Shown one piece after another: positions 38,386 to 53,852 of a DNA stretch of 64,000 nucleotides; the first letter of the stretch is position 1; each line of letters begins with the position of its first letter. The DNA lies in the NCBI RefSeq assembly GCF_014873485.1, contig NZ_JADBDT010000001.1:2046001-2110000 (forward strand), read 5' to 3'. The translations under genes were made by a program, and so were the position numbers. This stretch comes from Sphingopyxis sp. OAS728 (GTDB lineage Bacteria > Pseudomonadota > Alphaproteobacteria > Sphingomonadales > Sphingomonadaceae). Below the pieces are notes generated by a model. It saw nothing but the letters and a program-made list of their open reading frames with translations, was not told where the DNA came from and did no database searches.

Positions 38386-39387
38386 TCACCCGGGGTGCGA
38401 TTCGGCGCCGACACTCGATTTCAGCAGGCCGCGGAACACGTCCTGCGCGCTGCGTTTTCCCTGCGTCACATCATAGACGTCGCGCGCGATCGGCATGTCG
38501 AGGCCGTAGCGTTCGGCGAGCGCGATCACCGTCGGCGCGCTCTTCACTCCCTCGGCGACCATGTTCATGCCCGCGATGATCTCGTCGATCGGGCGCCCCT
38601 GGCCGAGTTCGACCCCGACATGGCGGTTGCGCGACAAAGGGCTGGTACAGGTCGCGATGAGGTCGCCCATGCCGGTGAGCCCCGCAAAAGTCTCCGCGCG
38701 GCCGCCCATCGCCACACCGAGCCGGGTGATTTCCGAAAGCCCGCGCGTCATCAGCGCCGAGCGCGTGTTGTCGCCCGCCCCCAGCCCGTCGCCCATGCCG
38801 ACCGCGATCGCGATGATATTCTTGAGCACGCCGCCAAGTTCGCAGCCGAGGAGGTCGGTGTTGGTGTAGACGCGGAACAGCCCCGAATGGAACACGGGCT
38901 GGAGCGCGCGGACGACGATCTCATCCTCCATCGAGAGCACGCTCGCCGCCGCCTGCCCCGTCATGATCTCGCGCGCGAGATTGGGTCCGGTGAGCACGCC
39001 GACGGGGTGGCCGGGGAGCACTTCCTCGATCAATTCGGTCATGCGCTTGCCCGAGGACAGTTCGAGCCCCTTGGTGAGGCTGATCACCGGCACCCAGGGA
39101 CGAAGGTGATTACGCGCCTCTTCGAGCACGGCGCGGAAACTGTGCGAGGGCACGCCCATGACGAGCACGTCGGCGCCCGCAACGACTTCGGCGAGGTCAT
39201 TTGTCGCGCGGAGTGCGGCGGGCAACTTGATCCCCGGCAGATATTTGCGGTTCTCATTATCGGCATTGATGCCGTCGACGGTTTCGGCATCGCGCGCCCA
39301 GAGCGTGATCGGCGCATTGCGCGACACCACCGATGCGACCGTCGTCCCCCAGCTGCCCCCGCCGAGCAGCCCCACCTTCAACCGCAT
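38386..39387 (-). CDS. gpsA: NAD(P)H-dependent glycerol-3-phosphate dehydrogenase
   Basis: A 333-residue enzyme that reduces dihydroxyacetone phosphate to sn-glycerol-3-phosphate for phospholipid and neutral-lipid synthesis. The N-terminal GLLGGGSWGTTVAS is the dinucleotide motif, the catalytic lysine lies in ISLTKGLE, NTDLLGCELGGVLKN includes the second active-site lysine, and the C-terminal part LTGMGDLIATCTSPLSRN fits the family. GGGAG is 6 bases before the ATG. It closes the run of lipid genes that starts at 48201, so its product would feed PlsB upstream. Confidence 0.97.
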   Translation of the reverse strand: MRLKVGLLGGGSWGTTVASVVSRNAPITLWARDAETVDGINADNENRKYLPGIKLPAALRATNDLAEVVAGADVLVMGVPSHSFRAVLEEARNHLRPWVPVISLTKGLELSSGKRMTELIEEVLPGHPVGVLTGPNLAREIMTGQAAASVLSMEDEIVVRALQPVFHSGLFRVYTNTDLLGCELGGVLKNIIAIAVGMGDGLGAGDNTRSALMTRGLSEITRLGVAMGGRAETFAGLTGMGDLIATCTSPLSRNRHVGVELGQGRPIDEIIAGMNMVAEGVKSAPTVIALAERYGLDMPIARDVYDVTQGKRSAQDVFRGLLKSSVGAESHPG

Positions 39388-39425
39388 GAAACTCTCCCTG
39401 TTTTGGGGAGAGACTGACGCGCATT

Positions 39426-40358
39426 TCAATGCTTGGCAAGAAAGCCCTTCATCACGGCCGCCGTGGCCTTCGGATCCTCGATCATCGGGACATGGCCGAC
39501 ATGCTCGAAGATATGGCTCTCGCTTCCGGCGATCCCCGCTTCGAGGACCGGCACGCAGCTCACATCGAGCAATTGATCGTGGCGCCCCCAGATAATCAGC
39601 GTCGGCACCTTCACCTCGCCGAGGCGGCCGTTCAGCGGATGGTCGCGCCCTTCGGTTGCGATGACCCAGAAGATCCTGTCGAGCTGGTCGCGATATTTGA
39701 GGCCGTCGGCGTAGAGCACCGGCTTCAGCCGCGACGGAATATAGGGCGGCTTGTGCACGACCATCGCCACCAGCCGGTCGGCATCCTCCAGATTGGCGAG
39801 GATGAGTGGATTATAATCCTCGTTCGCCGCCTGTTTCTGAAGCTCGCTTTCATGTTCGCCGTTGACGCCCGCATTGTTGAGCAGGATCAGGCTGGCGAGC
39901 GCGTCCGGATAGTCGATCGCATAGCGCAGCGCGATCCAGCCGCCCATGCTGTTGCCGCCGACATGCGGGCGCTGGAGGCCGAGCGCGTCGGCAAAGGCCT
40001 TCAGCCGCGCGGTCTGCGCCTGCAGGTCATAGGCGAGATCGGGATTGCGTTCATTTTCGCCAAAGCCTGGAAGGTCGGGCGCGATGACATGATAATCGCG
40101 CGTCAGGTACGGCGCGATCATCGACCAATTATCCTTGTCGCCCGCAAAACCGTGGACGAGAAGCAGCAAGGGCTTCGACGGATCGCCGCCCTCCAGATAA
40201 GGCCAGGTGCGACCGTCGACGACGACGCTTTTCTGCACCGTCCCGCCGCGACGGCGCAGCAACGCACGCCCGATCGCCACGAGGCGGCCGGGGAAGACGA
40301 AATACATCAGCGCAAGCGCGATCAGCGGCGCGAAGATCAGGACGAGCAGGATTCTCAT
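39426..40358 (-). CDS. membrane-anchored alpha/beta hydrolase
   Basis: A 310-residue hydrolase with an N-terminal transmembrane anchor (about 2-22, ILLVLIFAPLIALALMYFVF) and an alpha/beta hydrolase core. LLVHGFAGDKDNW is the oxyanion strand, GNSMGG (near 136) carries the nucleophile serine, GRHDQLLD the acid and GHVPMIED the histidine. The substrate is probably an ester or acylglycerol at the membrane, given the adjacent genes; that is inference. The ATG overlaps the preceding stop (ATGA), showing tight coupling with the next gene upstream. Confidence 0.87.
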   Translation of the reverse strand: MRILLVLIFAPLIALALMYFVFPGRLVAIGRALLRRRGGTVQKSVVVDGRTWPYLEGGDPSKPLLLLVHGFAGDKDNWSMIAPYLTRDYHVIAPDLPGFGENERNPDLAYDLQAQTARLKAFADALGLQRPHVGGNSMGGWIALRYAIDYPDALASLILLNNAGVNGEHESELQKQAANEDYNPLILANLEDADRLVAMVVHKPPYIPSRLKPVLYADGLKYRDQLDRIFWVIATEGRDHPLNGRLGEVKVPTLIIWGRHDQLLDVSCVPVLEAGIAGSESHIFEHVGHVPMIEDPKATAAVMKGFLAKH

Positions 40359-41215
40359 GCGGCGGGCGGGCCTTTCACATGTGCGTCGAACCAGCCGATG
40401 AGATCGTCGAGAACGGCGTCGCGTTCGGGCTCGTTATAGATTTCGTGGAACAGGCCCGGATAGATTTCGAGGCGCTTGTCCTTCGAGGCGACATTGGCGA
40501 ACAGATAGCGCGAGCCCGCGGGCGCCGTGAGGCGATCGGCCTCGCCATGCTGGATCAGGATCGGCAGGTGGATCTTCGGCGCGTCGGCTTGCGCGACCGC
40601 CATCGCGTCCATGAATTCCTTGCCGAGCCGCGCGCCGATCTTGCCGTCATAGACGAGCGGGTCGGCCTGATAGGCAGCGACGACTTGCGGGTCGCGGCTA
40701 ACGCCATTTGAATCGAGCGACAGCACGCCGAGACGCGGAAAGAAGCGCGACAGGAAGCGGCTGATCCAGACAGTGAAGCGCGACGGCGGTTCGGCGGGCA
40801 GGATTGCCGGGCCCGAGAGCGCGGCGGCGACGAACGCCTGCTGCCGCTCGACGAGAAACAAGGTCGCGATCAGCCCGCCCATGCTGTGCCCGAGCAGCAG
40901 GCGCGGAGTATCGGCATGATTGACCTCGACGAGCGTCAGCAATTCGCTCATCCCATCGAGAAAGGCCGAAAAGCGCGGGACGAAACCGCCCTCGCCATCC
41001 GAATTGCCATGACCCCAATGATCGACCGCATAGACGGCATAGCCCGCATCGGTCAGCCGCTTCGCGACATATTCATAACGTCCGGCGTGTTCGGCATAGC
41101 CGTGCGCGAGCAAGATGATCGCGCGCGGGCGGCCTTCGGGAAGCCAGTGGGTGACGTGGAGCTTTGCCCCGGCGCCGGCGGATCCGGCCGGCAAGATCAC
41201 CGCCCCCGCCGCCAT
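40355..41215 (-). CDS. monoacylglycerol lipase-like alpha/beta hydrolase
   Basis: A 286-residue hydrolase of the serine aminopeptidase S33/lysophospholipase group: WLPEGRPRAIILLAHGYAEHAGRY, DHWGHGNSDGEGG, LLGHSMGGLIATLF (nucleophile near 108), IQHGEADRLTAP, and LFHEIYNE with the histidine. This pattern is that of monoacylglycerol lipases. In this cluster it would finish the breakdown of acylglycerols begun by the patatin enzyme. The ATG at 41215 is 2 bp after the patatin stop. Confidence 0.85.
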   Translation of the reverse strand: MAAGAVILPAGSAGAGAKLHVTHWLPEGRPRAIILLAHGYAEHAGRYEYVAKRLTDAGYAVYAVDHWGHGNSDGEGGFVPRFSAFLDGMSELLTLVEVNHADTPRLLLGHSMGGLIATLFLVERQQAFVAAALSGPAILPAEPPSRFTVWISRFLSRFFPRLGVLSLDSNGVSRDPQVVAAYQADPLVYDGKIGARLGKEFMDAMAVAQADAPKIHLPILIQHGEADRLTAPAGSRYLFANVASKDKRLEIYPGLFHEIYNEPERDAVLDDLIGWFDAHVKGPPAA

Positions 41216-41217
41216 GC

Positions 41218-42687
41218 TCAGCGCACCGCCTTCTTCAGCGCCGCGCTGCGATGGCCGGGGCCGTCGTCGCCCGCCTTGTCGATCTTCGCGAGGATCGCTT
41301 CGAGCGCGCGGCTGATCGCGGTCTGGGTACGAACCATCTCGACCTTCGGCCATGCGGTGCGTTCGCCGGTGTCGATCAGCTCGTCGATGTCATCCTGCGC
41401 GAGGTCGGACAATATCTTCGTCGGCGACCAGAATTTGGGTGGGCGGATGATGTTGATGTCGCCGGTATATTCCTGATTGATCACCGAGCGCGCCATGTTC
41501 GCGAGGCTGTTGATCGGCGGGATCAGCTCGAGCGGCTTCTGGAAGATCACCATATTCGCGTTGAGCCACGCCTTGAAGGTCGTCATCGACGCGTGCTGGA
41601 TCGCCTCGATCGGCGCCATCTGCTTGCGCGTGTCGGTTGCGAAGGGCAGCGCGATCGGGTTCGCCTGGCTGACGATATGATGGTTGACGCCATAGAGGCG
41701 TTCGAGCCGCTTGGTCGGGATATCGTGCGTCACCGACCCGTCGACCCAGCGCCGGTCGGGCTGGTACGGGATGCGCTCGCCCTTGTCGTCGCGCGCCATC
41801 AGCATCACCGGCGGGAAAACGCCGGGCACCGCGCACGACGCGAGCACGGCTTCGCGGATCAGCACATTGGGTGCGGTGATCGCATTGAGCAGCCGGCCGT
41901 TCTGATGCTTTTCGGCGGGTGCGACCGAGACATTGAGGTGGCGGCCGCTGACCTCATAGGCTTCCTGAAAGGTCAGGTCGGGGATCAGGTCGGCGAGGCG
42001 TTCGCGCACCTCGTCGGGCGCAAGGCGTTTTTGATCGGGATTGCGGCTGGGGTTGGCGAGGCGCCCGCTTTCGAGGAAGGCACCGATGTCGGCATTCTTG
42101 CGCGTGCAGACGACCGCCGCGACGATCGACCCGCCGCTTGCGCCCGACATGATCGCGGGCAAAACGCCTTCTTCCCAAAGCGCCTTCACGACGCCGATAT
42201 GGAAGAAGAGGAAGCTGCCCGAACCCGAAAGCAGCAGCGCCGAGCGGCCGTAGCAATGCTGCGCACGGCGGAAGAAATCGCGCTTTTCCTCGCGGCTGAT
42301 GCTGCGCGCGGTTGCGATCTTGTCGAGCGAGGCGACGACCTCGGCGACATAATCCTCGATCAGCTTTTTCGTGCCGAAGCGCGCCTTCTGGTACAGCCGC
42401 TCGTGCCCCATGCCGTCGATATTGCCGTGGATGCCTTCGTTGAGCACGAAGAGCAGCCCCTTGACGTCACCCGCCGCCGACAGCTTGCGCAATTTTTCCA
42501 GCCGCGCGCGGATCGCCTTATAGTCGAAATGCTTGCTCTCATCGGCATCGCGCCATGCCTGCAGCCCCGATTTTTTGTCATGTTCGCGGGCCGCTTTGGA
42601 CCATGCGGCGTAATCGGGTGCGGTCACGAGATCGCGGTCGGCGCTGAGCGTCGGGGTGAAGAGCATTCGGTAATCCTGCGAGAGCAT
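41218..42687 (-). CDS. patatin-like lipase with DUF3336 (triacylglycerol lipase type)
   Basis: A 489-residue protein resembling yeast Tgl3/Tgl5 lipases: an N-terminal DUF3336 helical region (about 20-140), then a patatin domain with the GASGGS nucleophile elbow near 182, an oxyanion stretch SGSGSFLFFHIGVVKAL, and the catalytic aspartate in VDGS near 315. Patatin enzymes use a Ser-Asp dyad to cleave acyl esters; members with DUF3336 act on triacylglycerols. The C-terminus has a helix and a basic end. A second ATG lies at codon 8. It starts 3 bp after the acyltransferase stop. Confidence 0.87.
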   Translation of the reverse strand: MLSQDYRMLFTPTLSADRDLVTAPDYAAWSKAAREHDKKSGLQAWRDADESKHFDYKAIRARLEKLRKLSAAGDVKGLLFVLNEGIHGNIDGMGHERLYQKARFGTKKLIEDYVAEVVASLDKIATARSISREEKRDFFRRAQHCYGRSALLLSGSGSFLFFHIGVVKALWEEGVLPAIMSGASGGSIVAAVVCTRKNADIGAFLESGRLANPSRNPDQKRLAPDEVRERLADLIPDLTFQEAYEVSGRHLNVSVAPAEKHQNGRLLNAITAPNVLIREAVLASCAVPGVFPPVMLMARDDKGERIPYQPDRRWVDGSVTHDIPTKRLERLYGVNHHIVSQANPIALPFATDTRKQMAPIEAIQHASMTTFKAWLNANMVIFQKPLELIPPINSLANMARSVINQEYTGDINIIRPPKFWSPTKILSDLAQDDIDELIDTGERTAWPKVEMVRTQTAISRALEAILAKIDKAGDDGPGHRSAALKKAVR

Positions 42688-42690
42688 GGT

Positions 42691-44259
42691 TTATTTTTTG
42701 CGAGTCTTGCCGGTTGCGTTCGCTTTAGCAACCGGTTTCACCCTGCTCTTTGTCGCAGTTTGGGCCGCAGACTTGGGTTGAGCCTTGGGTTTGGCCTTGG
42801 GCTTGGCCGCAGGTTTCGGCTCTGCCGTAGCGGCTTTGGGCTTTTCGGGTTTGGGCATCGCTGCCATCAGGTCGGCGAAACTTTCGTCGATACATTCGCG
42901 GAAAAAGGCGATGTCGGGCATCACCGCGCGTTCGGAGATGAGCGAAAAGGCGATCCGGCCGTTGTAGCTGGGGGTCGCGACGAACAGGCCCATATTGTTC
43001 GCGAGCGGCGCCATCCCGTGCTGCTGCACCAGCTGCGCCCCCGCGAGGTAGAGCGGCACCTGTGCGCCGGGCACGTTCGAGATGAAGAGGTTGGTGCCGC
43101 GCACCGCGAAACGTTCGCTGGTGACGAGCCGCGCGACCGCCGCCATCGTCGCGCCCGGAATATGCTGCGACAAATCGGTCATGATCCGCGCGCTGACGCC
43201 CGCTTTGGCCTCCTTCGCCTCGACCGTATAATCGCGCACCGCGGCGAGCCGTTCGAGCGGATCGGCGATGTCGGTGCGGATCGGCACGCTCATCGCCGAC
43301 ACCTGATTGCCCGGCTTCGACGCCTTGCCGCCCTTGCCGCGCAAATTGATCGGCGCGACCGCGACAAGGCTGTCCTTGGGCAATTCCTTGTGCTTCGCGA
43401 GATATTTGCGCAGCGCGCCGCCGACGGTGGTGAGCACGACATCGTTGACCGTCGCACCCGGCACCTTCTTGCGGATTTCGGCGACATCGGCGAGCGCGAC
43501 CGTCGTCGCGTCGAACATCTTGTGCGGACCCACCGGCACGTTGAAGCGCGTTTCGGGCACGCCAGCCGTCATGCCGCCCTCGGCGATCGATTTCCGCGCC
43601 GACGAAATGATCGCGGGCGACATTTTCATCAGCGCGTTCATGAATTTGACCGGCGACTGCATCGACGCCGACCAGGCGCGCGAGAGGGTTTCGGTGCTCG
43701 ACGGCGCTTTGCCGAGTTCTTCGACCGGCGGCGGCTCGGCGATCGCGGGCGTCCCCTTTGCATCGATATCGCTCATCGCGATAAAGGCGTGCGCGCCCGA
43801 AGCGCCGTCGACCGCGGCGTGGTGGACGCGGTGGAGCATCGCGAAGCTGCCCTTGGGGATGCCCGGAATCCGGTCGAGCCCCTCGATGACATAGATGTCC
43901 CAGAGGGGGCGGTTCATATCCATCGGCTTCGAAAACCAGCGCGCGACCGCGATGCAGAACTGCCGCCAGTCGCCGGGCTCGGGCAGCCGCGCATGGCTCA
44001 TATGCGCCTCGATGTCGAAATGCTCGTCCTCGACCCAATAGGGATGGTCCATGTCGAACGGCAGCCGGTGGAGCCGGCGCTTGAACAAGGGCGATGTGTC
44101 GACGCGGCTTTCGACGTGACGGATGATGTCCTTGAAACGCACGAAACCGCCGGGCGCGGTCGAGGGGTCGTAGATATAAACGCCCATGATGTGCGTCAGA
44201 TTGTTCGCGGTCTGCGTGTAGAGGAACTGGGCGTCCTGCGCGCTGAGCTGTTTGAGCAT
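42691..44259 (-). CDS. wax ester synthase/diacylglycerol O-acyltransferase
   Basis: A 522-residue bifunctional acyltransferase that makes wax esters or triacylglycerol from acyl-CoA and an alcohol or diacylglycerol. The catalytic HHAAVDG is near residue 145, PLW is in MNRPLWDIYVIEG, NDVVL near 268, and ISNVPGAQVPLY near 388. After about residue 470 the protein ends in a strongly basic tail of Lys, Ala and Pro (KPKAKPKAQPK and similar). AGGAGG lies 5 bases before the ATG, overlapping the end of the plsB gene, so coupling is tight. The tail is unusual for this family. Confidence 0.93.
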   Translation of the reverse strand: MLKQLSAQDAQFLYTQTANNLTHIMGVYIYDPSTAPGGFVRFKDIIRHVESRVDTSPLFKRRLHRLPFDMDHPYWVEDEHFDIEAHMSHARLPEPGDWRQFCIAVARWFSKPMDMNRPLWDIYVIEGLDRIPGIPKGSFAMLHRVHHAAVDGASGAHAFIAMSDIDAKGTPAIAEPPPVEELGKAPSSTETLSRAWSASMQSPVKFMNALMKMSPAIISSARKSIAEGGMTAGVPETRFNVPVGPHKMFDATTVALADVAEIRKKVPGATVNDVVLTTVGGALRKYLAKHKELPKDSLVAVAPINLRGKGGKASKPGNQVSAMSVPIRTDIADPLERLAAVRDYTVEAKEAKAGVSARIMTDLSQHIPGATMAAVARLVTSERFAVRGTNLFISNVPGAQVPLYLAGAQLVQQHGMAPLANNMGLFVATPSYNGRIAFSLISERAVMPDIAFFRECIDESFADLMAAMPKPEKPKAATAEPKPAAKPKAKPKAQPKSAAQTATKSRVKPVAKANATGKTRKK

Positions 44260-46599
44260 TTATCCTCCTGAACCGGGTAGTCGGTCCGCAAGCGCCACGG
44301 TTGAAAGGCGCATCGTTTCCATGACGTTGGCGAGGCCGCGCAGTTCCATCAGCAGCGCGCGGCGCGCGGCGAGGTTGACCGGCGTTGCCTCCTCGGCGAG
44401 CCCCATATGGCGCATCAGCGACAGGCCGTTAGCGAAGAGCAATTTCCCGATCGCCGCCTCGCTGCTGATGCGGCGCAGGAGGTAAGCTTGCCGGCCCTCG
44501 ACGAGCGCCGCGTCGAGCAGCGCCTTTTCGTCGACGGCGTCGCCGGGCTTCGCGCGCGCAAGCTGCTCGGCGACGACCGAATAGGCTTCTGCAAAGGGCA
44601 GCAAGATCGCGTGGCCGACGACCGGCTGGCAGCGGCGGATAAGCTGCGCGATGCCGCGATCGCCGCTCGCAAGGCGGCGGTCCCACACGGGATCGATGCG
44701 CGCCAGCTCGGCTTCGATCGCAGCGCGATGCTCATCGCGCGGCGGGTAGAAAAATTCGAATTTGAACAGGTCGCGCAGCCGATCGATCTTCGCCCAGAAG
44801 GCGGCGGTCGCATCGCCGCTGTCGCCATCGCGCAGTTCGAACAGCGCAAGTTCGATCATCGCACGGTCGAGGAAATGATGCGCGATGATGTTTCGGTAAT
44901 AGCTCGCCATCGGGTGCTTGGCGGGGTCGATCGAATAGACATTCTCGCTCCCCGCCTCGTAGCGCGCGAGCAGCCCGCTCGCGACGAGCGTATCGACGGT
45001 CGCCGACAGGGCGCTGTCGTCGCCGCTTTCGAGTTCCTTGCTTAGCCTTATGCCGCGCGCCCGCGCCCAGTCGGTCACCGCGCCGATCGCGCCGAGCAGC
45101 TCGGCCGCTGTTGCGCCGCGCGGCGCCATGCCGAGAAGGATCAGGCACATCACCGAGGTGACGGTGAGCGGCGTGACGCGGTTCGCCTCGACCGCGACCG
45201 CGAAAGCGATCTTTTCGAGCGCGCGCTTGTCGTCGGGGCCGGGCGCCTGATCGATGACGACGGGCTCGCCGATGTCGAGCCGGATGCGGCCCGACGGTTC
45301 CTTCAGGCTCTTCATATAGCCGATGAACCACGACAGGCTTTCGGGCTTCTTGTTCCGCCCCGTCTGCTCCGCGGCATATTCCTCGACGTCGCGAATGAGG
45401 TCGAAGCTGGTGACGAAGGGCACGAAATGGACGCCCCGCGTCCCCGTCGCATGCGCCGCGTCGAGGACATATTTCATCAGGCCATATTTGGGCGGCATCA
45501 GCTTGCCGAGGCGCGAGCGCGTTCCCTCGAACGCCCAGCTCAAGGGGAAGCGCTTGGCGAGCAGCCACGCGATATAGTGGCGCAGCACGAGCTTGTAGAC
45601 CGGCTGGTCCTGAAAGCTGCGCCGGATGAAGATCATCCCCGAGCGGCGGAAGAATTCGCCCATCACCGCGAAGTCGAGATTGGCGCCGCCGAAGCTGTGC
45701 AGCATCGGCATGTCCTTCTCATAGGTCAGCCGGCTGGGGGTCGCACCATCGATATAGGTTTTGTGGGTGAAGAGGATCGCGGTCGGATGCTCGCGTAGGA
45801 TCGAACGCAGCTTCGCAAGCTCGGCGGCGTCGATCTCCATCTCGGGCGCATAGCCACCGAACATCATGCGATCGAGCCGCGCGCGCAGGTCGAGGAAGAG
45901 CGCCGATGGCCGCGCGATGACCTCCTTCATCAGCGGGCGCGCCTCGCGATAGAGGTCGCCGACGGGCCGGCCCGTCTTCTCCGCCAGATCGGCGAGCGCG
46001 GCGCGGAATTTGGGGCTGGTGCGTAGGCCGTCGGCGACGAAACGCGGCACCTTGTAGCGCGTTCCGCGGATCCCGCGCTCGGCGACATCGAGCGCGAGCG
46101 CGGCCTGCCGCGCGACGAAGCCTGCAAATTCGGGGCTGTCGGCACCCTCACCGTCGCCGCCGCCGGTCTGTGCGCAGAAACGGTCGCGCAGCGCGTCGAG
46201 CGTCGCCGCCTCGCCGACGAGAATCTGCGCGCGCCGCCGGTCGCGCAGCAGGATCAGCCGCGAGCGGAGCGGCCCGGGATGGCGCGGATCGCCAAAAATC
46301 AGATGCCGGAATTTGAGCGCGCGGTCCTTGTCGAAGCCCGGGATGCGCCACGCGACACGCAGCGGCACGACCAGCCGCGACGGCGCGCCGCCGAGCCGCG
46401 CCTGCAGCACGTCGACGGGCAGCGCGTGATCGCCATCCTCGATGTCGAGGCTGGCCCAGGCCGGTTCGTCATCGCCGCTCGTCGAATGCATCCAGTCGAG
46501 CAGGATGCGCCGCTCGACCCCGTTGCGCGCGTCGATGATATAGAGCCGGTCGGCCGCCTGCTCCGTCACGATTCCGGTGCGGGGCGTTCCGTCGGCCAC
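44260..46599 (-). CDS. plsB: glycerol-3-phosphate O-acyltransferase (PlsB type)
   Basis: A 779-residue membrane-peripheral enzyme that puts the first acyl chain on glycerol-3-phosphate. The acyltransferase blocks are visible: HKTYID near residue 276 (HX4D type), GGANLDF, FFRRSGMIFIRRSF, AFEGTRSRLGK near 356 and VHFVPFV near 393. The flanking N- and C-terminal helical regions match PlsB in length. It starts with GTG, 3 bases after the preceding stop, and its end carries the ribosome site of the next gene. Supplied with glycerol-3-phosphate by GpsA from the same run. Confidence 0.9.
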   Translation of the reverse strand: MADGTPRTGIVTEQAADRLYIIDARNGVERRILLDWMHSTSGDDEPAWASLDIEDGDHALPVDVLQARLGGAPSRLVVPLRVAWRIPGFDKDRALKFRHLIFGDPRHPGPLRSRLILLRDRRRAQILVGEAATLDALRDRFCAQTGGGDGEGADSPEFAGFVARQAALALDVAERGIRGTRYKVPRFVADGLRTSPKFRAALADLAEKTGRPVGDLYREARPLMKEVIARPSALFLDLRARLDRMMFGGYAPEMEIDAAELAKLRSILREHPTAILFTHKTYIDGATPSRLTYEKDMPMLHSFGGANLDFAVMGEFFRRSGMIFIRRSFQDQPVYKLVLRHYIAWLLAKRFPLSWAFEGTRSRLGKLMPPKYGLMKYVLDAAHATGTRGVHFVPFVTSFDLIRDVEEYAAEQTGRNKKPESLSWFIGYMKSLKEPSGRIRLDIGEPVVIDQAPGPDDKRALEKIAFAVAVEANRVTPLTVTSVMCLILLGMAPRGATAAELLGAIGAVTDWARARGIRLSKELESGDDSALSATVDTLVASGLLARYEAGSENVYSIDPAKHPMASYYRNIIAHHFLDRAMIELALFELRDGDSGDATAAFWAKIDRLRDLFKFEFFYPPRDEHRAAIEAELARIDPVWDRRLASGDRGIAQLIRRCQPVVGHAILLPFAEAYSVVAEQLARAKPGDAVDEKALLDAALVEGRQAYLLRRISSEAAIGKLLFANGLSLMRHMGLAEEATPVNLAARRALLMELRGLANVMETMRLSTVALADRLPGSGG
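44264..44269 (-). promoter_or_regulatory. strong Shine-Dalgarno inside plsB end
   Basis: AGGAGG (minus strand) overlaps the last codons of plsB and sits 5 bases before the ATG of the wax ester synthase/DGAT gene. It is the strongest ribosome site in the lipid block and suggests that this acyltransferase is made in excess. Confidence 0.75.
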
Positions 46600-46602
46600 C
46601 GC

Positions 46603-48201
46603 TTAGCCGGTCTTTCCCTTGGCGGCCGCGGGCTTTTTAGCGGGGGCCTTTTTCTTCGCGGCGGGCTTTTTCGCGGCCGCCTTTTTGGGCTTGGCCTTTT
46701 CGGTCTTGGCCTCCGGCGGAGCGTCCTCGGGTGCAGGCTCTTTCGCCACCGATTCCGCAACGCTTTCCTCGGGCTGGCCAAGTGTCCGCAGGAACATGTT
46801 CCGCACATCGCGGACATGGTTATTTATCGTCTTCGGGCTCCATCCCGACGTGTCGACCGGCGGCAGCACGGTAACGCGGACCGTGGCGGGACGCATCACA
46901 AACTCGTTCTTCGGCGCGACGTCGGTGGCATTATGGATCACGATCGGGACGATCGGCACGCCCGCCTGCATCGCGAGGTGGAAGGCCCCCTTCTTAAACG
47001 GTTCGAGTTTCGGCGTCAGGCTGCGCGTGCCTTCGGGCGAGATGCAGATCGACTTGCCCTCGACCCGGATCGCGTCGACCAGCGGCTCCATCGCCTTGAT
47101 CGCGCTCTTGCCGTCGGCGCGGTCGACGAAAACGGTGCCGCCCCATTCCATCAGCTTGCCGAGAATGGGGATGTCCTTGATTTCCTTCTTCCCCACCCCG
47201 CCCATGTCGCGGCGGATGAGCTTGGCGAGGATCATCACGTCCGCCTTGCTCTGATGGTTGAAGATGAAGACGCAGGGGCGCGAGGACCAGAGATTCTTCT
47301 CATCCTCGACCTCCAGCTCGACCCCCGTAATCGCGGTGGCGAAGTCGCCGAACAGCCCGATCGAGAAATTCGCCGCCTCGCGCTGCGAGCGCGTCAGCGC
47401 CCAGATCGGCAAGCCCGCAGCGAAGGCGCCGACGAGCGAGCCGGTGGCGTAGATGGTGCGCGTATAATCTACCCATGACGGCGTGCCGCGGCTGCCGAAC
47501 CGCTGCACCGGCCAGCCATTTTCTTCGGCGATTGCCTTGAGTTTGAGGTTCGGGTTGAGCGGGCGCGGCTTGCCGACGCGTTCGAGCAGTTCGATATCAT
47601 CGTCGCTGTCCGAATAGAAAAAGCTCTGGTCGAGATCGAGGCCGTACTCCTCGGCCAGTTCCTCGGCCGCGAGCACCTTACCCTCGCCGAAGCAGAGCGG
47701 GCGGATGATTTCGCCGGTAAAGACGCCATCCTCGATCTCATAGGCCGAGCATTTGATGTCGGTGATGCCAAGGTCGCGCGCGGTTGGTTCGATCTGGTAG
47801 ATCGTCGCCGACGAGATGATCGCGACGCGGTGGCCCTTCGCCTGATGCGCCTCGATGATCGCGCGCGTTTCGGGATAGATTTTGCGGGCGATATGCTTCT
47901 TGTAGAGTTCTTCGCCGAACTCGATGAAGCTTTCCTCGTCGACGCCCTTCATGAATTTGGCGGCGCCCGACATCAGCCCCGAGAAACCGATGGTACCGAG
48001 GCTGTGCTGCGCGATGACCTGCGCGGTCTCGGCAATCTCTTCCATCGACATTTCGCGGCGCTGGAACTTCTCGCGCAGCATCGCGGTCGCGGAGTAGCCC
48101 GAGATGATCGTTCCATCGAAATCGAACAGCGCGGCGATATGCGATCCCGGCTCCGACGCGAGCACTTCTTCCAAATGTGGCTGCGGCCTTGGCACGCGCA
48201 T
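46603..48201 (-). CDS. HAD phosphatase-PlsC acyltransferase fusion
   Basis: A 532-residue fusion. The N-terminal HAD-IB domain (about 20-235) has FDFDGTI (nucleophile Asp), ISSAT, the GEGK lysine and DSDDD. The C-terminal LPLAT/PlsC domain (about 270-450) has NHQSKAD (HX4D, near 315), FVDRADG, and PEGTRS near 387. It should acylate lysophosphatidic acid; the HAD part could remove the phosphate from the product. The last 50 residues are a Lys/Ala/Pro tail (KPKKAAAKKPAAKKK). GGGGAG abuts the ATG at 48201, so a GTG at 48193-48195, 6 bases downstream of that site, is the likelier start. Confidence 0.9.
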   Translation of the reverse strand: MRVPRPQPHLEEVLASEPGSHIAALFDFDGTIISGYSATAMLREKFQRREMSMEEIAETAQVIAQHSLGTIGFSGLMSGAAKFMKGVDEESFIEFGEELYKKHIARKIYPETRAIIEAHQAKGHRVAIISSATIYQIEPTARDLGITDIKCSAYEIEDGVFTGEIIRPLCFGEGKVLAAEELAEEYGLDLDQSFFYSDSDDDIELLERVGKPRPLNPNLKLKAIAEENGWPVQRFGSRGTPSWVDYTRTIYATGSLVGAFAAGLPIWALTRSQREAANFSIGLFGDFATAITGVELEVEDEKNLWSSRPCVFIFNHQSKADVMILAKLIRRDMGGVGKKEIKDIPILGKLMEWGGTVFVDRADGKSAIKAMEPLVDAIRVEGKSICISPEGTRSLTPKLEPFKKGAFHLAMQAGVPIVPIVIHNATDVAPKNEFVMRPATVRVTVLPPVDTSGWSPKTINNHVRDVRNMFLRTLGQPEESVAESVAKEPAPEDAPPEAKTEKAKPKKAAAKKPAAKKKAPAKKPAAAKGKTG

Positions 48202-48263
48202 CTCCCCACCAACGGCTATATTGCCGTTTTACCTAGGCACAGTGGCAGTAAAGATGGCGTTTA

Positions 48264-48884
48264 TCAATGGCGCGAAAGGGCAGCGGCTTCGCGAGCTAGC
48301 GTCTCGATTTTCGCGGCGTCGAGCGGTCCAGACGGGACGACCCAACTGCCGCCGACGCACAGCACCGCTTCGAGCGCGAGCCATTCGGGTGCGGTCGCGA
48401 GGCTGATGCCCCCGGTCGGACAGAAGCGCGCCTGACCGAAGGGGCCCGCGAGCGCCTTCAGCGCCGGGATGCCGCCGCTGGTCGCTGCGGGGAAGAATTT
48501 GAAGCGGTCGAGGCCGAGGTCCATCCCGCGCATGATGTCGCCGGCGTTGGCGGTACCGGGCAGGAAGGGAATCCCGCTGGCGACCGCCGCCTTGCCGAGA
48601 TTATCGGTGAGGCCCGGCGAGACGATGAATTCGGAGCCCGCGGAAATCGCGGCGTCGAGCATCGCAGGATCGAGCACGGTACCCGCGCCGACGACCGCGC
48701 CCTTGACACTTTTCATCGCCTTGATCGCGTCGAGCGCGGCGGGGGTGCGCAGCGTCACTTCGAGCACCGTGAGGCCGCCCGCAACGAGCGCCTCGGCCAT
48801 CGGCACCGCATCCTCGACCCGGTCGATGACGATCACCGGGATGACGGGCGCGAGGCGCATGATCTGGTCGATGGACTGGCTCAA
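48264..48884 (-). CDS. eda: 2-keto-3-deoxy-6-phosphogluconate aldolase
   Basis: A 206-residue class I aldolase that splits KDPG to pyruvate and glyceraldehyde-3-phosphate, the last Entner-Doudoroff step. LEVTLRT has the catalytic glutamate, RFKFFPA the Schiff-base lysine, and [14 protein letters not shown] the phosphate site. The TTG at 48884 is preferred over the ATG at 48860: GGAG lies 8 bases before it and the resulting N-terminus reaches the family length. It overlaps the last base pairs of edd, so translation is coupled. Confidence 0.94.
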
Positions 48885-50722
48885 ATGACGGACTCCATGG
48901 CAGCAAGAACGGCCGACCCGCCCTTTTCGGCTTCGTCGGCATGATGGCGGAACAGGGCGAACAACTCGCGGCCGACGCCCAGCGCGGGCGGCGGGGCGAC
49001 GGCGGGGGTGCGTGCGGCCCATTCGGCTTCGTCGACGAGCGCGATCGCCTCGCCGTTCACCGCGCAGACGCGAACGATGTCGCCGTCCTGCAAATAGGCG
49101 AGCGGGCCGCTGACGCCGTCGGGGCCAGGCAAGGCTTCGGGCGACAGATGGATCACCGCGGGCACCTTGCCGCTCGCGCCCGACATGCGGCCGTCGGTGA
49201 GGAGCGCAACGCGGAAGCCCTTGTCCTGCAGCACGCCGAGCGCGGGGGTCAGCTTGTGCAGTTCGGGCATGCCGTTGGCGCGCGGGCCCTGGAAGCGGAC
49301 GACGACGACGACGTCGCGCTCGAGCTCGCCCGCCTTGAACGCGGCCAATACCTGGTTCTGGTCGTCGAAGATCCGGCACGGCGCCTCGATCGTCCAGCGA
49401 TCCTCGGCAACCGCGCTCGTCTTGATAATCGCGCGGCCCAAATTGCCTGCGAGCAGGCGCATGCCGCCGTCTGGCGAGAAAGGCGCCGAAACGGGACGCA
49501 GCATCGTATCGTCGCGGCTCTCGGCGGGGGCAGCCTGCCAGTGGAGTTCGTCATTTACGAGCACCGGCTCGGCGGCATAGTCGGCCATCGTCCCGCCGAC
49601 GGTCAGCACATCGCCGTGCAGCAAGCCGGCGCCGAGCAGTTCGCGCACGACATAGCCGATCCCGCCTGCGGCATGGAAATTGTTCACGTCGCCCGCCCCG
49701 TTCGGATAGACGCGCGCGAGCAAGGGCACCGCGTGGCTGAGTTCGTCGAAATCCTGCCAGTCGATGACGATCCCCGCCGCGCGCGCGATCGCGGGCAGGT
49801 GGATCGCATGGTTGGTGGAGCCGCCCGTCGCGAGCAGGCCGATCGCGGCGTTGACGATCGCCTTTTCATCGATGCAGCGCGCGAGCGGACGATAATCGTC
49901 GCCGTCCCAGCCGATCTGCGCAATACGGTGCGTCGCAGCGCGCGTCAGTTCCTGCCGCAGCTTGGTGCCGGGGTTGGTGAAGGCGCTGCCGGGGATGTGA
50001 AGCCCCATCAGCTCCATCATCATCTGGTTGCTGTTCGCGGTGCCATAGAAAGTACAGGTGCCCGCACCGTGATAGCTTGCCGCCTCGGCCTCTAGCAGCT
50101 CGTCACGCGTCGCCTTGCCTTCGGCATAAAGCTGGCGGACGCGCTGCTTTTCCTTGTTCGCGAGGCCAGAAGGCATCGGCCCGGCGGGGATCAATATCTG
50201 CGGCAGGTGGCCGAAACGCAGCGCGCCGATCAACAGGCCAGGAACGATCTTGTCGCAGATACCGAGCAGCAAAGCGCTCTCGAACATCGCGTGGCTCAAT
50301 GCGATCACCGTGCCCTGCGCGATATTGTCGCGGCTGAACAGCGACAGGTCCATGCCCGCCTGTCCCTGCGTCACCCCGTCGCACATCGCGGGAACGCCGC
50401 CCGCGACCTGCGCGGTCGCGCCGACTTCGCGCGCGAAGAGTTTGATCTGTTCGGGATAGCGGCCGTACGGCTGATGCGCCGAGAGCATGTCGTTATAGCT
50501 GGTGACGATGCCGATATTCATCTCGGCGCCCGACCGGATCGCGGGCTTGTCCTCGCCGGAGGCGGCAAAGCCATGCGCGAGATTGCCGCACGAGAGGTTG
50601 CCGCGATTGGTGCCCGCCTCGCGCTGGCGGTCCATAAGTTCGAGATAGGCGGCGCGGCGCGGAGCACTGCGCGCGATAATGCGGTCGGTAACCTTGGCGA
50701 TTACGGGGTTCAGATCAGTCAT
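48881..50722 (-). CDS. edd: 6-phosphogluconate dehydratase
   Basis: A 613-residue [4Fe-4S] dehydratase that makes KDPG from 6-phosphogluconate. IlvD/Edd family features include [44 protein letters not shown], a TGGSTNH stretch and [12 protein letters not shown]. The cluster cysteines appear in these segments. Full length. Its start overlaps the zwf stop by 8 bp and its stop overlaps the eda start, so zwf, edd and eda form one operon. Confidence 0.96.
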
Positions 50723-52178
50723 GCCAACTCGCTCCGTCGCGCTCGATCAGCGCGATTGCACTCGACGGCCCCCAGCTTCCCGCCGTGTAATTCTGCGGCG
50801 CCATATCGACCGCGGCCCAGGCGTCGCGGATCGAATCGATCCACTGCCACTGCGCCTCGACCTCGTCGCGGCGCACGAACAGGGTCTGGTCGCCCTCGAT
50901 GAAATCGAGCAGCAGGCGCTCATAGGCGATGCGCCGCCGCTCGCCCGCAAAGCTGTGCGAGAGCGAGACGTCCATCGTCACCTCTTTGAGCTTCACCCCG
51001 TCGCGATCGAGGCCGGGCTGCTTCGCCATCACCTTGACCCGGATATTCTCCTCGGGCTGCAAGTTGATGATCATGCTGTTCGCATCGAGCTTGCCCGCGC
51101 CGACGCGCGCGAAGATATTGTGCGGCACCGGCTTGAACTGGATCAGCACCTCGGACTTGCGCTGCGGCATGCGCTTGCCGGTGCGCAGGTAGAAGGGCAC
51201 GCCCTTCCAGCGCCAATTGTCGATATAGGCTTTCAGAGCGACGAAGGTTTCGGTGTTCGACGGATTGCCGAGCTCGTCGGCATAGCCCGCGACCGCACCG
51301 CCATTGACCGCACCGCTGGTATATTGGCCCTTGACGCTGTGCGCCTTCACATCCTCGGCCGTCATCTTGCGAAGCGAGCGGAGCAGCTTGACCTTTTCGT
51401 CGCGCACCGCGGTCGACGAAACGCTCGAAGGCGGCTCCATCGCGATGATCGCGAGCAGTTGGAGCATATGGTTCTGCACCATGTCCTTGAGCGCGCCGAC
51501 ACCGTCATAATAGGAGACGCGGCCCTCGAGCCCGACGGTTTCGGCGACGGTGATCTGAACATGATCGATTGCCTGCGCATTCCAGAGCGGCTCGAACAGC
51601 ATGTTGGCAAAGCGGAGCGCGAGCAGGTTCTGCACCGTTTCCTTGCCGAGATAATGGTCGATGCGGAAGACGCGGTCTTCGGCAAAGGCGTCGCCGACCT
51701 CGGCATTCACGTTGCGCGACGAGGCAAGGTCGTGGCCGATCGGCTTTTCCATCGCGATGCGGCATTCGGCGCAGGCGATGCTCGCAGCCTTCAGCCCCTG
51801 GGCGATCGGACCGAACATCGACGGCGGGGTCGAAAGATAGGCGCCGATCGGACGACCGAGCCGGTCGCCGAGCTGCGCCGCAAGTTCGTCATAACCCGTG
51901 CCGGCCCCCGCATCGACCGAACAATAATTGACGCGTTCGAGGAAGGTCGCGATCTGCCGGTCATCGAGCCGGTCGGCGGGCAGATGTTCGGTCAGCGCTT
52001 TTCGCACCATGTCGTGGCACGCCGCGCGGTCCATCTTCGATCGTCCCGACGCGACAATCGTCAGCACATCGGCAAGCAGCCCGTCGACATGGAGATTGTA
52101 GAGCGAGGGGAAAAGCATCCGCTGCGCAAGGTCGCCCGTTGCGCCGAACAGGATCAGGGTTTCGACTTTTACGCTCAC
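50715..52178 (-). CDS. zwf: glucose-6-phosphate 1-dehydrogenase
   Basis: A 487-residue NAD(P)-dependent dehydrogenase making 6-phosphogluconolactone and NAD(P)[20 protein letters not shown] is the nucleotide motif, [16 protein letters not shown] the active site with the catalytic His, and [15 protein letters not shown] the substrate and allosteric region. It starts with GTG (52176-52178), with AAGGGGA 6 bases before. Note that the 6-phosphogluconolactonase gene (pgl), common in this operon, is not in this window. First gene of the ten-gene minus-strand run. Confidence 0.96.
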
Positions 52179-52301
52179 TACAGTCCCCTTGGATAGTTTT
52201 TCAGAATTGGAGGATGCACCCCGCGAATGCAACGCGCATACGTAGGCCGCATACGATGTCGCCCCTTGGCAAATCGGACAACGCTGCCATAGGAATTCGC
52301 C
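52179..52301. promoter_or_regulatory. shared promoter region of zwf and glpD
   Basis: A 123-bp gap between divergent carbon-metabolism genes. It is relatively AT-rich at 52190-52215. CGCGCATACGTAGGCCGCATACG contains two GCATACG half-sites in direct repeat (52236-52242 and 52249-52255), which could be a regulator site. No known consensus is matched. Confidence 0.35.
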
Positions 52302-53852
52302 ATGCTCGACAGCCCTGCCCCTTATGATGTCATCGTCGTCGGCGGCGGTGTCAATGGCGCGGGCGTCGCGCGCGATGCCGCGGGACGCGGGGCGCGCGTG
52401 CTGCTGCTCGAGGCGAACGACCTTGCCGAAGGCACATCGTCGAAGTCGACGAAGCTGATCCACGGCGGGCTGCGCTACCTCGAACATTATGAATTCGGCC
52501 TCGTGCGCGAGGCGCTCAAGGAGCGCGAAATACTGTGGGGCATCGCGCCGCATATCATCCGCCCGCTGCGTTTCGTGCTGCCGCATCGACCCGGTCTGCG
52601 CCCGCGCTGGCTGCTGCGGCTCGGCCTTTTCCTCTATGACCATATCGGCGGCCGCAAAAAGCTGCCCGCGACGCGATCGGTCGATTTGCGCCGCCATGCC
52701 GCGGGCGGGCCGCTGCAGCCGCAATATGTCAAAGGCTTCGAATATTCGGACGGCTGGGTCGACGATGCACGGCTCGTCGCGCTCAACGCACGCGACGCGG
52801 CCGATCATGGTGCGCGCGTCCGCACGCGCACGCGCGCCGAAATGCTGCGCTGCGAGGATGGGCTGTGGATCGTCGACGCTCGCGACGACCAAGGGCACCA
52901 ATATCGCTTTACCGGGCGCAGCGTCGTCAATGCGGCGGGGCCGGCGGTGCTCGACCTGCTGAAGCGCGCCGACGCCGAACCCGATCAGCAGATGCGGCTG
53001 GTTCGCGGATCGCATATCGTCGTGCGCAAGGTCTTCGAGCACGACTATGCCTATTTCTTCCAGCTCCCCGACGGACGCATCTTCTTCGCCATCCCCTATG
53101 AACGCGACTTCACGCTGATCGGGACAACCGACCAGGACCATGACGGGCCGGCAAGCGAAGCGAACGCGAGCGACGAGGAAATCGCCTATCTGTGCGAAGG
53201 CGCGAGCCTCTATTTTCGCGAGCCGGTCACCCCCGCCGATGTCGTGTGGACCTATTCGGGCGTCCGGCCGCTGATCGAGGACGGATCGGGGCGCCCCGAG
53301 GCGGCGACGCGCGGATACCGGATCGACCTCGACATGGCCGAGGGCGCGCCGCTGCTCACCATCTATGGCGGCAAGATCACCAGCTATCGCCATGTTGCCG
53401 AAGATGCGGTCGACGAACTCGCCGGGCATATCGATGCGCTGTCGCGTAAGCATTGGACCGGCAAGACGTCGCTTCCCGGCGGCGATTTCGCGACCGACGG
53501 TATCGCGGCATTGAAGGCCGAATATAAGCTCGCCTATCCCTTCCTGACCGCCGCAACGGTCGACCGTATCGCCCGCGCCTATGGCACCGACGCGCGGCGC
53601 TGGCTGGGCGATGGCGCTAGCTGGGACGAACTCGGCGGCGAAATCGCCCACGGGCTCAGCGTCGCCGAAGTCCGCTGGATGGTGACGCGCGAATGGGCGC
53701 GCACGACCGACGATGTGCTCTGGCGGCGAAGCAAGCTGGGGCTGCATTTCACGCCCGATCAGGTGACCACGCTCGCCGAACATATCGCCCGCCTCGTCGC
53801 CGAGGCGCGGCTTGCCGATCCGGAATATTTTGAGGGTCGCGTGAATAACTGA
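52302..53852 (+). CDS. glpD: glycerol-3-phosphate dehydrogenase (FAD, respiratory)
   Basis: A 516-residue FAD flavoprotein that oxidises glycerol-3-phosphate to dihydroxyacetone phosphate and feeds electrons to quinone. VVGGGVNGAGVARDAAGRG is the FAD motif; KSTKLIHGGLRYLEHYEFGLVREAL, RGSHIVV, IGTTDQDHDG and the C-terminal GKITSYRHVAEDAVDEL part with its DAO_C domain are complete. It is the catabolic counterpart of GpsA at the other end of the lipid block. It is divergent from zwf with a 123-bp shared region. Confidence 0.96.
   Translation: MLDSPAPYDVIVVGGGVNGAGVARDAAGRGARVLLLEANDLAEGTSSKSTKLIHGGLRYLEHYEFGLVREALKEREILWGIAPHIIRPLRFVLPHRPGLRPRWLLRLGLFLYDHIGGRKKLPATRSVDLRRHAAGGPLQPQYVKGFEYSDGWVDDARLVALNARDAADHGARVRTRTRAEMLRCEDGLWIVDARDDQGHQYRFTGRSVVNAAGPAVLDLLKRADAEPDQQMRLVRGSHIVVRKVFEHDYAYFFQLPDGRIFFAIPYERDFTLIGTTDQDHDGPASEANASDEEIAYLCEGASLYFREPVTPADVVWTYSGVRPLIEDGSGRPEAATRGYRIDLDMAEGAPLLTIYGGKITSYRHVAEDAVDELAGHIDALSRKHWTGKTSLPGGDFATDGIAALKAEYKLAYPFLTAATVDRIARAYGTDARRWLGDGASWDELGGEIAHGLSVAEVRWMVTREWARTTDDVLWRRSKLGLHFTPDQVTTLAEHIARLVAEARLADPEYFEGRVNN

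Follow-up and report, generated by a model that had tools for sequence, protein, structure and literature searches.

A predicted seven-gene neutral-lipid module beside the Entner–Doudoroff genes of Sphingopyxis

Described clusters and the Sphingopyxis locus

The atf9-plsB-plsC genes of Rhodococcus jostii RHA1 form a transcribed operon, conserved in rhodococci and mycobacteria, whose PlsC is a HAD fusion (PMC4850399). PlsB2 of Mycobacterium smegmatis acylates the sn-1 position of glycerol-3-phosphate from acyl-CoA (PMC10593935), and Rv2483c and Rv2484c are among the listed proteins associated with lipid inclusions (PMC10699116). Complete Kennedy sets beside a gene for WS/DGAT (wax ester synthase/diacylglycerol acyltransferase) are described in Parasphingorhabdus and Gammaproteobacteria; one such cluster includes a glycerol-3-phosphate dehydrogenase, others lie near pentose-phosphate genes, and fat inclusions in Sphingomonas sp. 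EGY1 are cited in the same work (PMC10351704). The locus considered here is a run of ten minus-strand genes, zwf to gpsA, at 38386-52178 of a 64,000-nucleotide stretch of Sphingopyxis sp. OAS728 (hereafter the window). A sequence-only reading had taken the ten genes for one genetic unit joining sugar oxidation to neutral-lipid synthesis and turnover. The present analysis favours, with a probability of about 70%, an Entner–Doudoroff (ED) block followed by a self-contained seven-gene neutral-lipid module with its own promoters, working beside the PlsY route of membrane-lipid synthesis. From comparative evidence, the evolutionary unit is the seven genes from HAD-PlsC to gpsA2, not the ten.

The core of such a cluster is already known. 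RHA1 atf9-plsB-plsC and mycobacterial Rv2482c-Rv2485c likewise group a PlsB2-type acyltransferase, a PlsC-HAD fusion and a WS/DGAT (PMC4850399, PMC10699116), and the Mycobacterium tuberculosis cluster has a hydrolase gene, LipQ, beside it, as there are hydrolases here (PMC10699116). A PlsB2 subfamily enzyme, a HAD-PlsC fusion and an adjacent same-strand WS/DGAT, which mark a Kennedy cluster of actinobacterial type, are all present in the window. Compared with RHA1 and the mycobacteria, Sphingopyxis adds a DUF3336-patatin, two hydrolases, a gpsA paralogue and a location behind zwf-edd-eda, and gene order differs. Within the Sphingomonadaceae, Parasphingorhabdus halotolerans JK6 and metagenome scaffolds also have a full Kennedy set by a WS/DGAT, with AGPAT-HAD fusions, but beta-oxidation genes adjoin there, and the available part of the report names neither patatin nor Sphingopyxis (PMC10351704). 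The clusters of Arenicella, Woeseia and Zhongshania combine Kennedy genes with WS/DGAT as here (PMC10351704), but in another order and with more distant proteins (34-49% identity); the Zhongshania locus (L167) holds HAD-PlsC, WS/DGAT, patatin, abh1 and plsB2, without ED genes. The earlier statement that WS/DGAT genes are rarely reported in so complete a context was thus too strong, the RHA1 operon (PMC4850399) and the Kennedy clusters (PMC10351704) being in print. What this locus adds is the near-universality of the module in Sphingopyxis, the gpsA2 copy that tracks it, the DUF3336-patatin, the cationic tails and the gpsA2 leader. A literature search on six Sphingopyxis alaskensis locus tags (Sala_0194, with neighbours guessed by number) gave no match, which does not imply that fat in Sphingopyxis has gone unreported. 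The yeast Tgl3/4/5 and plant SDP1 triacylglycerol lipases likewise have DUF3336 ahead of a patatin domain that carries GxSxG and Asp; the Sphingopyxis protein differs from these in being bacterial and in lying inside a synthesis module, its lipase activity being a prediction.

The ten genes proposed for the run are indeed all on the minus strand, with intact frames and matched families:

50715..52178, minus strand: zwf, glucose-6-phosphate dehydrogenase (ED block); TIGR00871 561 bits, PF00479/PF02781
48881..50722, minus strand: edd, phosphogluconate dehydratase (ED block); TIGR01196 904 bits, cut-off 708
48264..48860, minus strand: eda, 2-keto-3-deoxy-6-phosphogluconate (KDPG) aldolase (ED block); PF01081, TIGR01182 232 bits
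46603..48195, minus strand: HAD-PlsC, HAD-IB phosphatase domain and 1-acylglycerol-3-phosphate acyltransferase, disordered cationic tail; PF12710, PF01553, TIGR01490, TIGR00530
44260..46599, minus strand: plsB2, PlsB2-type glycerol-3-phosphate acyltransferase; NF002886 950.8 bits, cut-off 721
42691..44259, minus strand: WS/DGAT acyltransferase, cationic C-terminal tail; TIGR02946 397 bits, cut-off 310; PF03007, PF06974
41218..42687, minus strand: DUF3336-patatin, predicted triacylglycerol lipase; PF11815 117 bits, PF01734 79 bits
40355..41215, minus strand: abh1, S33/monoacylglycerol-lipase-like hydrolase; PF12146 264 bits; GHSMG
39426..40358, minus strand: abh2, alpha/beta hydrolase; PF00561 112 bits
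38386..39387, minus strand: gpsA2, second glycerol-3-phosphate dehydrogenase; NF009098 539 bits, cut-off 436
52302-53852, flanking the run: glpD, divergent; read from the list of open reading frames and used as tblastn query

Motifs of established catalytic meaning occur throughout the lipid genes. The HAD half carries DFDGT and SDSDD and the PlsC half NHX4D and EGTR; PlsB2 has THX4D and EGTR; WS/DGAT has HHAAVDG at residue 146 and both WS/DGAT domains; the patatin has GASGG and DGS, its catalytic Ser and Asp being unchanged across 8 homologues; the hydrolases have GHSMG and GNSMG, and GpsA has GGGSWG. Against the canonical PlsB model TIGR03703, plsB2 scores 143.8 bits, below the cut-off of 618.5. 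HAD and PlsC (PF12710 and PF01553) lie in one protein with two domains in the predicted structure, and the PDB matches of the DUF3336-patatin cover the patatin core only. Purifying selection acts on all module genes, with the lowest median dN/dS of the 11 genes compared in HAD-PlsC (0.067); the values for WS/DGAT (n=34) take in the unrelated second WS/DGAT of the same genome (L066, C1:2240185-2241003), the source of their extremes. This second enzyme is 28% identical to the module WS/DGAT, lacks a cationic tail and has no other module genes nearby.

The start of HAD-PlsC is most likely GTG 48195, kept in 34/34 sequences, rather than ATG 48201, kept in 21/34. The gap to eda is therefore 68 bp, not the 62 bp first given; the 38 bp before gpsA2 stands. 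The edd/eda junction measures 20 bp, with eda starting at ATG 48860. Insertions of roughly 100-200 bp occur at every one of the nine junctions in part of the 33 other loci, and the close spacing of the ten genes is partly peculiar to this genome; some patatin-abh1 gaps of 1447-1598 are artefacts of alignments that run through a stop upstream of patatin, the gene coordinates at these loci giving short gaps.

Conservation and distribution of the seven lipid genes

Gene-order comparison finds a genus-wide synteny, so the case of a run peculiar to this genome, named at the outset as one that would undo the proposal, does not hold. The ten genes have the same order and strand in 27/33 other Sphingopyxis loci, and eda is directly upstream of HAD-PlsC in 32/34 module genomes. 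The six order exceptions are contig ends (L035, L043, L057), a split (L052) and loci without upstream ED genes (L064, L065). The split in L052 is real and falls between abh1 and abh2, abh2-gpsA2 having been relocated to L094. As to L064 and L065, in genome G034 the ED genes are on a separate contig (L093) and not upstream of the module, and in the fragmented G009 no ED gene occurs in the 3.1 kb upstream of HAD-PlsC. As glpD flanks the run in 27/33 loci too, a linkage equally kept, genus-level synteny alone says little about one operon.

Outside Sphingopyxis the lipid genes travel without sugar oxidation, so that the linkage first proposed is kept through most of the genus and not beyond it. 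Both sampled genomes of genus g110 (L079, L080), inferred to be Parasphingorhabdus-like from the names of proteins of similar identity, have these seven lipid genes in unchanged order, and the roughly 6.8 kb inspected upstream contains no ED gene. Loci of Parvibaculaceae type (L083, L084, L087 and L097-L102, some from the same organisms) have abh1, patatin, an opposite-strand gpsA2, WS/DGAT, plsB2 and HAD-PlsC. In genus g86, HAD-PlsC, abh1 and plsB2 have other orientations, gpsA2 is present in 1/2 loci and WS/DGAT is on other contigs. Among the best 80 of 349 named lipase relatives, ranked towards a Parvibaculaceae query and with some contigs only a few kilobases long, HAD-PlsC is found in 7 of the fetched stretches and zwf/edd/eda in 0. 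An ED linkage wherever the lipid module occurs thus fails in L079, L080, the Parvibaculaceae loci, L064 and L065.

In one draw from the order, 34/36 Sphingopyxis genomes and 0/24 from other genera have a full-length HAD-PlsC, weaker single-domain matches occurring in all 60. Across the family it is found in 7/199 genomes and 3/96 genera (E <= 1e-60); WS/DGAT is common there (63/199 genomes), and DUF3336 is rare in the class (10/385 genomes at E <= 0.001, 9 above the cut-off). By these counts the module is patchy in the family and almost fixed in Sphingopyxis. A phylum-wide draw at E <= 1e-80 recovered HAD-PlsC in only two Sphingopyxis among 398 genomes, a strict threshold that is no proof of absence. 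The two Sphingopyxis genomes without the module (G015 and G017) are small, at 2.3 and 3.0 Mb, and have divergent ED genes (zwf 62%). Each of them also has at least 2 polyhydroxyalkanoate (PHA) synthase genes, against one in the OAS728 genome and in most module genomes searched; G020 and G021 have the module together with two or more PHA synthase matches.

The gpsA of the run, as had been supposed, belongs with the lipid genes: it is a second genome copy and accompanies the module. Two gpsA copies are found in 33/34 module genomes, the exception (G032) breaking off within the module where its contig ends. A single copy occurs in both module-less Sphingopyxis and in 21/24 genomes of other genera; of the remaining three, one has an extra gpsA fragment of 35 positions and two have no gpsA. 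In the OAS728 genome gpsA2 shares 40% identity with the other copy, which lies at C1:2917529 (L096). PlsY is present once in this genome and once in 24/25 Sphingopyxis searched, and hence the usual membrane-lipid route exists alongside the module.

Lys, Ala and Pro abound in the last ~50 residues of HAD-PlsC and WS/DGAT, where the median net charge is +9 and +15, respectively (n=33 loci); the C-terminal charge of the other five module proteins lies between -2 and +3 (n=22-33). The WS/DGATs of both g110 loci are tailed (+13, +11), those of Parvibaculaceae and Zhongshania have no cationic tail, and the Zhongshania HAD-PlsC has a weaker one (+6). PF07382, a histone-H1-like family, matches the tail of 6/120 HAD-PlsC proteins among the matches listed. 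The tailed enzymes are those predicted to make diacylglycerol and triacylglycerol, acting in sequence.

Separately, a gene for a protein of 422-427 amino acids lies between abh1 and abh2 on the same strand in four loci (L037:14842-16125, L044:1737-3005, L045:14497-15765, L047:1563-2831), with no Pfam match in the two of the four that were scanned; L059 has a different insert at this place, likewise without Pfam match.

Leaders of HAD-PlsC and gpsA2

Two short gaps of the run, before HAD-PlsC and before gpsA2, contain the best-conserved non-coding sequence compared in it, which calls for caution in inferring one operon from small spacing. The leader features are as follows:

48239..48267, minus strand: P2 footprint before HAD-PlsC, TTGATA, 17 nt, CACTGT; motif in 34/34 leaders
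39411..39439, minus strand: P3 footprint before gpsA2, TTGCCA, 17 nt, CAGTCT; motif in 26/27 other loci
48211..48228, minus strand: small 5-pair hairpin of the HAD-PlsC leader, with pairing in 99.3% of cells over 30 sequences
39392..39412, minus strand: inverted repeat with the gpsA2 ribosome-binding site as its 3' arm (predicted pairing)
52228..52244, minus strand: conserved zwf leader core TACGTATGCGCGTTGCA, kept in most of 30 zwf leaders

The eda stop codon overlaps the -35-like box of P2, and the -35-like box of P3 lies inside the 3' end of abh2. P2 stands 70-72 nt from the start codon in 33 of the 34 leaders and 60 nt in one, and is retained in L064 and L065, which have no ED genes upstream; P3 is at a near-constant distance from gpsA2. 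The common form, TTGN3-N17-CAN3T, occurs before zwf in only 2/30 leaders, before edd, eda, plsB2, WS/DGAT, patatin, abh1 and abh2 in none (29-34 leaders each), and in 113/12946 background tiles. These scans used windows of 85 nt; at 70 nt only 5/34 HAD-PlsC leaders score, the motif starting 70-72 nt upstream. With up to 3 mismatches, the HAD-PlsC element is found once per genome in 6/6 Sphingopyxis and in 0/3 other genomes. The leaders are read as three transcription start points, before zwf, HAD-PlsC and gpsA2, and the partly palindromic zwf core TACGTATGCGCGTTGCA is a possible regulator site of the ED block.

A strong terminator with an independent promoter at 48202-48263 had been named as what would speak against one unit; the promoter-like footprint is there, and the consensus scan finds no terminator in the eda/HAD-PlsC gap of the window. 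Over the whole, consensus scans for terminators and sigma-70 promoters returned counts equal to those of shuffles. Among relatives the gap measures 60-215 bp (counted to the ATG), with insertions on the eda side and the ~70 bp adjoining HAD-PlsC conserved. L035, L039, L059 and others carry GC-rich palindromes ~80-110 bp on the eda side of P2, some of -40 to -59 kcal/mol, which look like dispersed repeats. In the leader hairpin of HAD-PlsC 1/5 pairs changes on both sides. Strong covariation was rejected: sliding the partner by +2 scores higher (0.257 versus 0.188), with only 49.6% of cells paired. The hairpin alignment holds 30 of 32 distinct leaders (L064 and L065 omitted), two further rows being identical to others.

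The gpsA2 leader is predicted to hide its ribosome-binding site in read-through RNA only. The 5' arm of the inverted repeat overlaps the -10-like box of P3, so that it would be absent from RNA begun at the gpsA2 promoter. For read-through RNA the predicted openness of the Shine–Dalgarno sequence is 0.12, against 0.59 for own-start RNA and 0.36 when the upstream part is shuffled (n=27); the read-through value is below the shuffled one in 26/27 leaders and below the own-start one in 27/27. This set comprises 27 of 28 leaders, L058, without the motif, being omitted from alignment and calculation alike. A similar block before HAD-PlsC was discarded, since its openness (0.21 for read-through versus 0.37 for own-start RNA, below shuffled in 24/34) resembles that of the control edd (0.25, 0.35, 22/31).

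Predicted pathway and competing explanations

The reactions, the triacylglycerol product and promoter activity are all inferred from families; gene content, order, conservation, footprints, gpsA2 and the single plsY are observed. GpsA2 would reduce dihydroxyacetone phosphate to glycerol-3-phosphate, which PlsB2 would acylate at position 1 from acyl-CoA and the PlsC half of HAD-PlsC at position 2; the HAD half would then remove the phosphate to give diacylglycerol, and WS/DGAT would attach a third chain to it. Breakdown of the stored fat would fall to the DUF3336-patatin lipase and the monoacylglycerol-lipase-like abh1. The module would run beside, not in place of, the PlsY membrane-lipid route. 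Most of its transcription would begin at a promoter in the eda/HAD-PlsC gap, with gpsA2 also served by one of its own; a degree of read-through from eda is probable, though nothing requires it. Of the initial proposal, the coherent pathway of synthesis and mobilisation is supported, and its union with sugar oxidation in one genetic unit is not.

Several observations weigh against this interpretation. The motif was defined post hoc on these same leaders, from related species that are not independent, and a generic sigma-70 scan, blind to it, predicts nothing in the two gaps (3 sites over the region versus 2.4 expected); P2 and P3 are for these reasons called footprints and not proven promoters. 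An Rfam scan gave nothing useful, with two chance-level miRNA matches below gathering scores. abh2, below every NCBIfam equivalog cut-off listed, has no clear role in the module. ED linkage in 32/34 genomes leaves room for selected co-transcription. Lastly, this genome encodes a PHA synthase, and stored polyhydroxybutyrate (PHB) makes up about 7% of dry weight in S. granuli TFA (PMC7250832), so that fat would be at most one of two reserves.

One alternative concerns the phosphatase step. It is conceivable, if doubtful, that the HAD half acts instead on lysophosphatidic acid, yielding monoacylglycerol, or on glycerol-3-phosphate, yielding glycerol, or that it is no more than a regulatory remnant. 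Its fold matches, from a predicted model, are mainly phosphoserine phosphatases; plant HAD-GPAT structures are not among the matches listed for HAD-PlsC, which excludes nothing. Its catalytic positions are conserved across 22 sequences with identities as low as 38%, and the HAD step falls between acylation and WS/DGAT; both points argue for the proposed reaction, but neither settles the substrate.

A second, rather doubtful explanation is that the chief product of HAD-PlsC, PlsB2 and GpsA2 is phosphatidic acid, built from acyl-CoA of exogenous or beta-oxidation origin as a second membrane-lipid route, and that WS/DGAT and the lipases only dispose of excess acyl-CoA. The low dN/dS would fit such a constitutive role, the orthologous RHA1 operon is most expressed under nitrogen excess and called house-keeping (PMC4850399), and mycobacterial PlsB2 serves phospholipid synthesis (PMC10593935). 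However, PlsY is present, and the intact HAD motifs with the linked WS/DGAT and lipase point beyond phosphatidic acid.

A single sugar-to-fat operon, in which the ten genes are transcribed mainly from the zwf promoter and NADPH and triose phosphate are made together with the lipid enzymes, appears unlikely. It has in its favour the common strand, the short gaps here, the ten genes in order in 27/33 loci with eda directly upstream in 32/34, the lack of a terminator-like site in the window's eda/HAD-PlsC gap and the rise of ED and pentose-phosphate genes in RHA1 during fat accumulation (PMC4850399). Yet the same seven genes occur without ED genes in a second genus (L079, L080) and, in part, in Parvibaculaceae loci, L064 and L065 are unlinked, and 0/80 lipase loci have ED genes; P2 is kept in 34/34 leaders, including those two, strong palindromes stand in the eda/HAD-PlsC gap of several relatives, and the glpD linkage is equally kept. 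The link to sugar oxidation is a neighbourhood at genus level, of unproven functional meaning.

WS/DGAT enzymes often make both products, yet wax ester instead of triacylglycerol is very improbable here, as the linked genes all belong to the glycerolipid route and PF07993 finds no strong fatty acyl-CoA reductase (best 31.9 bits), the latter being weak evidence and uninformative as a test because PF07993 matches all 14 control genomes.

The seven-gene module could be elaborated into a constitutive triacylglycerol cycle insulated from the ED genes by the HAD-PlsC promoter and by a gpsA2 leader of which only own-start RNA is translated well, with a bifunctional HAD-PlsC handing diacylglycerol to WS/DGAT and with histone-H1-like cationic tails keeping the two enzymes together, on either a fat droplet or the nucleoid; as a whole, this elaboration is speculative and more probably wrong than right by a wide measure.

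If the neutral-lipid module is real, a genus of oligotrophs and pollutant degraders would have a near-core neutral-fat pathway besides PHB, and a module so compact could be deleted or moved as one piece. The identity of the phosphatase in bacterial fat synthesis would become testable, PMC4850399 and PMC10351704 both leaving open what the PlsC-HAD fusion does. The main interest lies in a compact, near-universal module with its own predicted glycerol-3-phosphate supply and lipase, in the question posed by the HAD half and in two conserved leaders.

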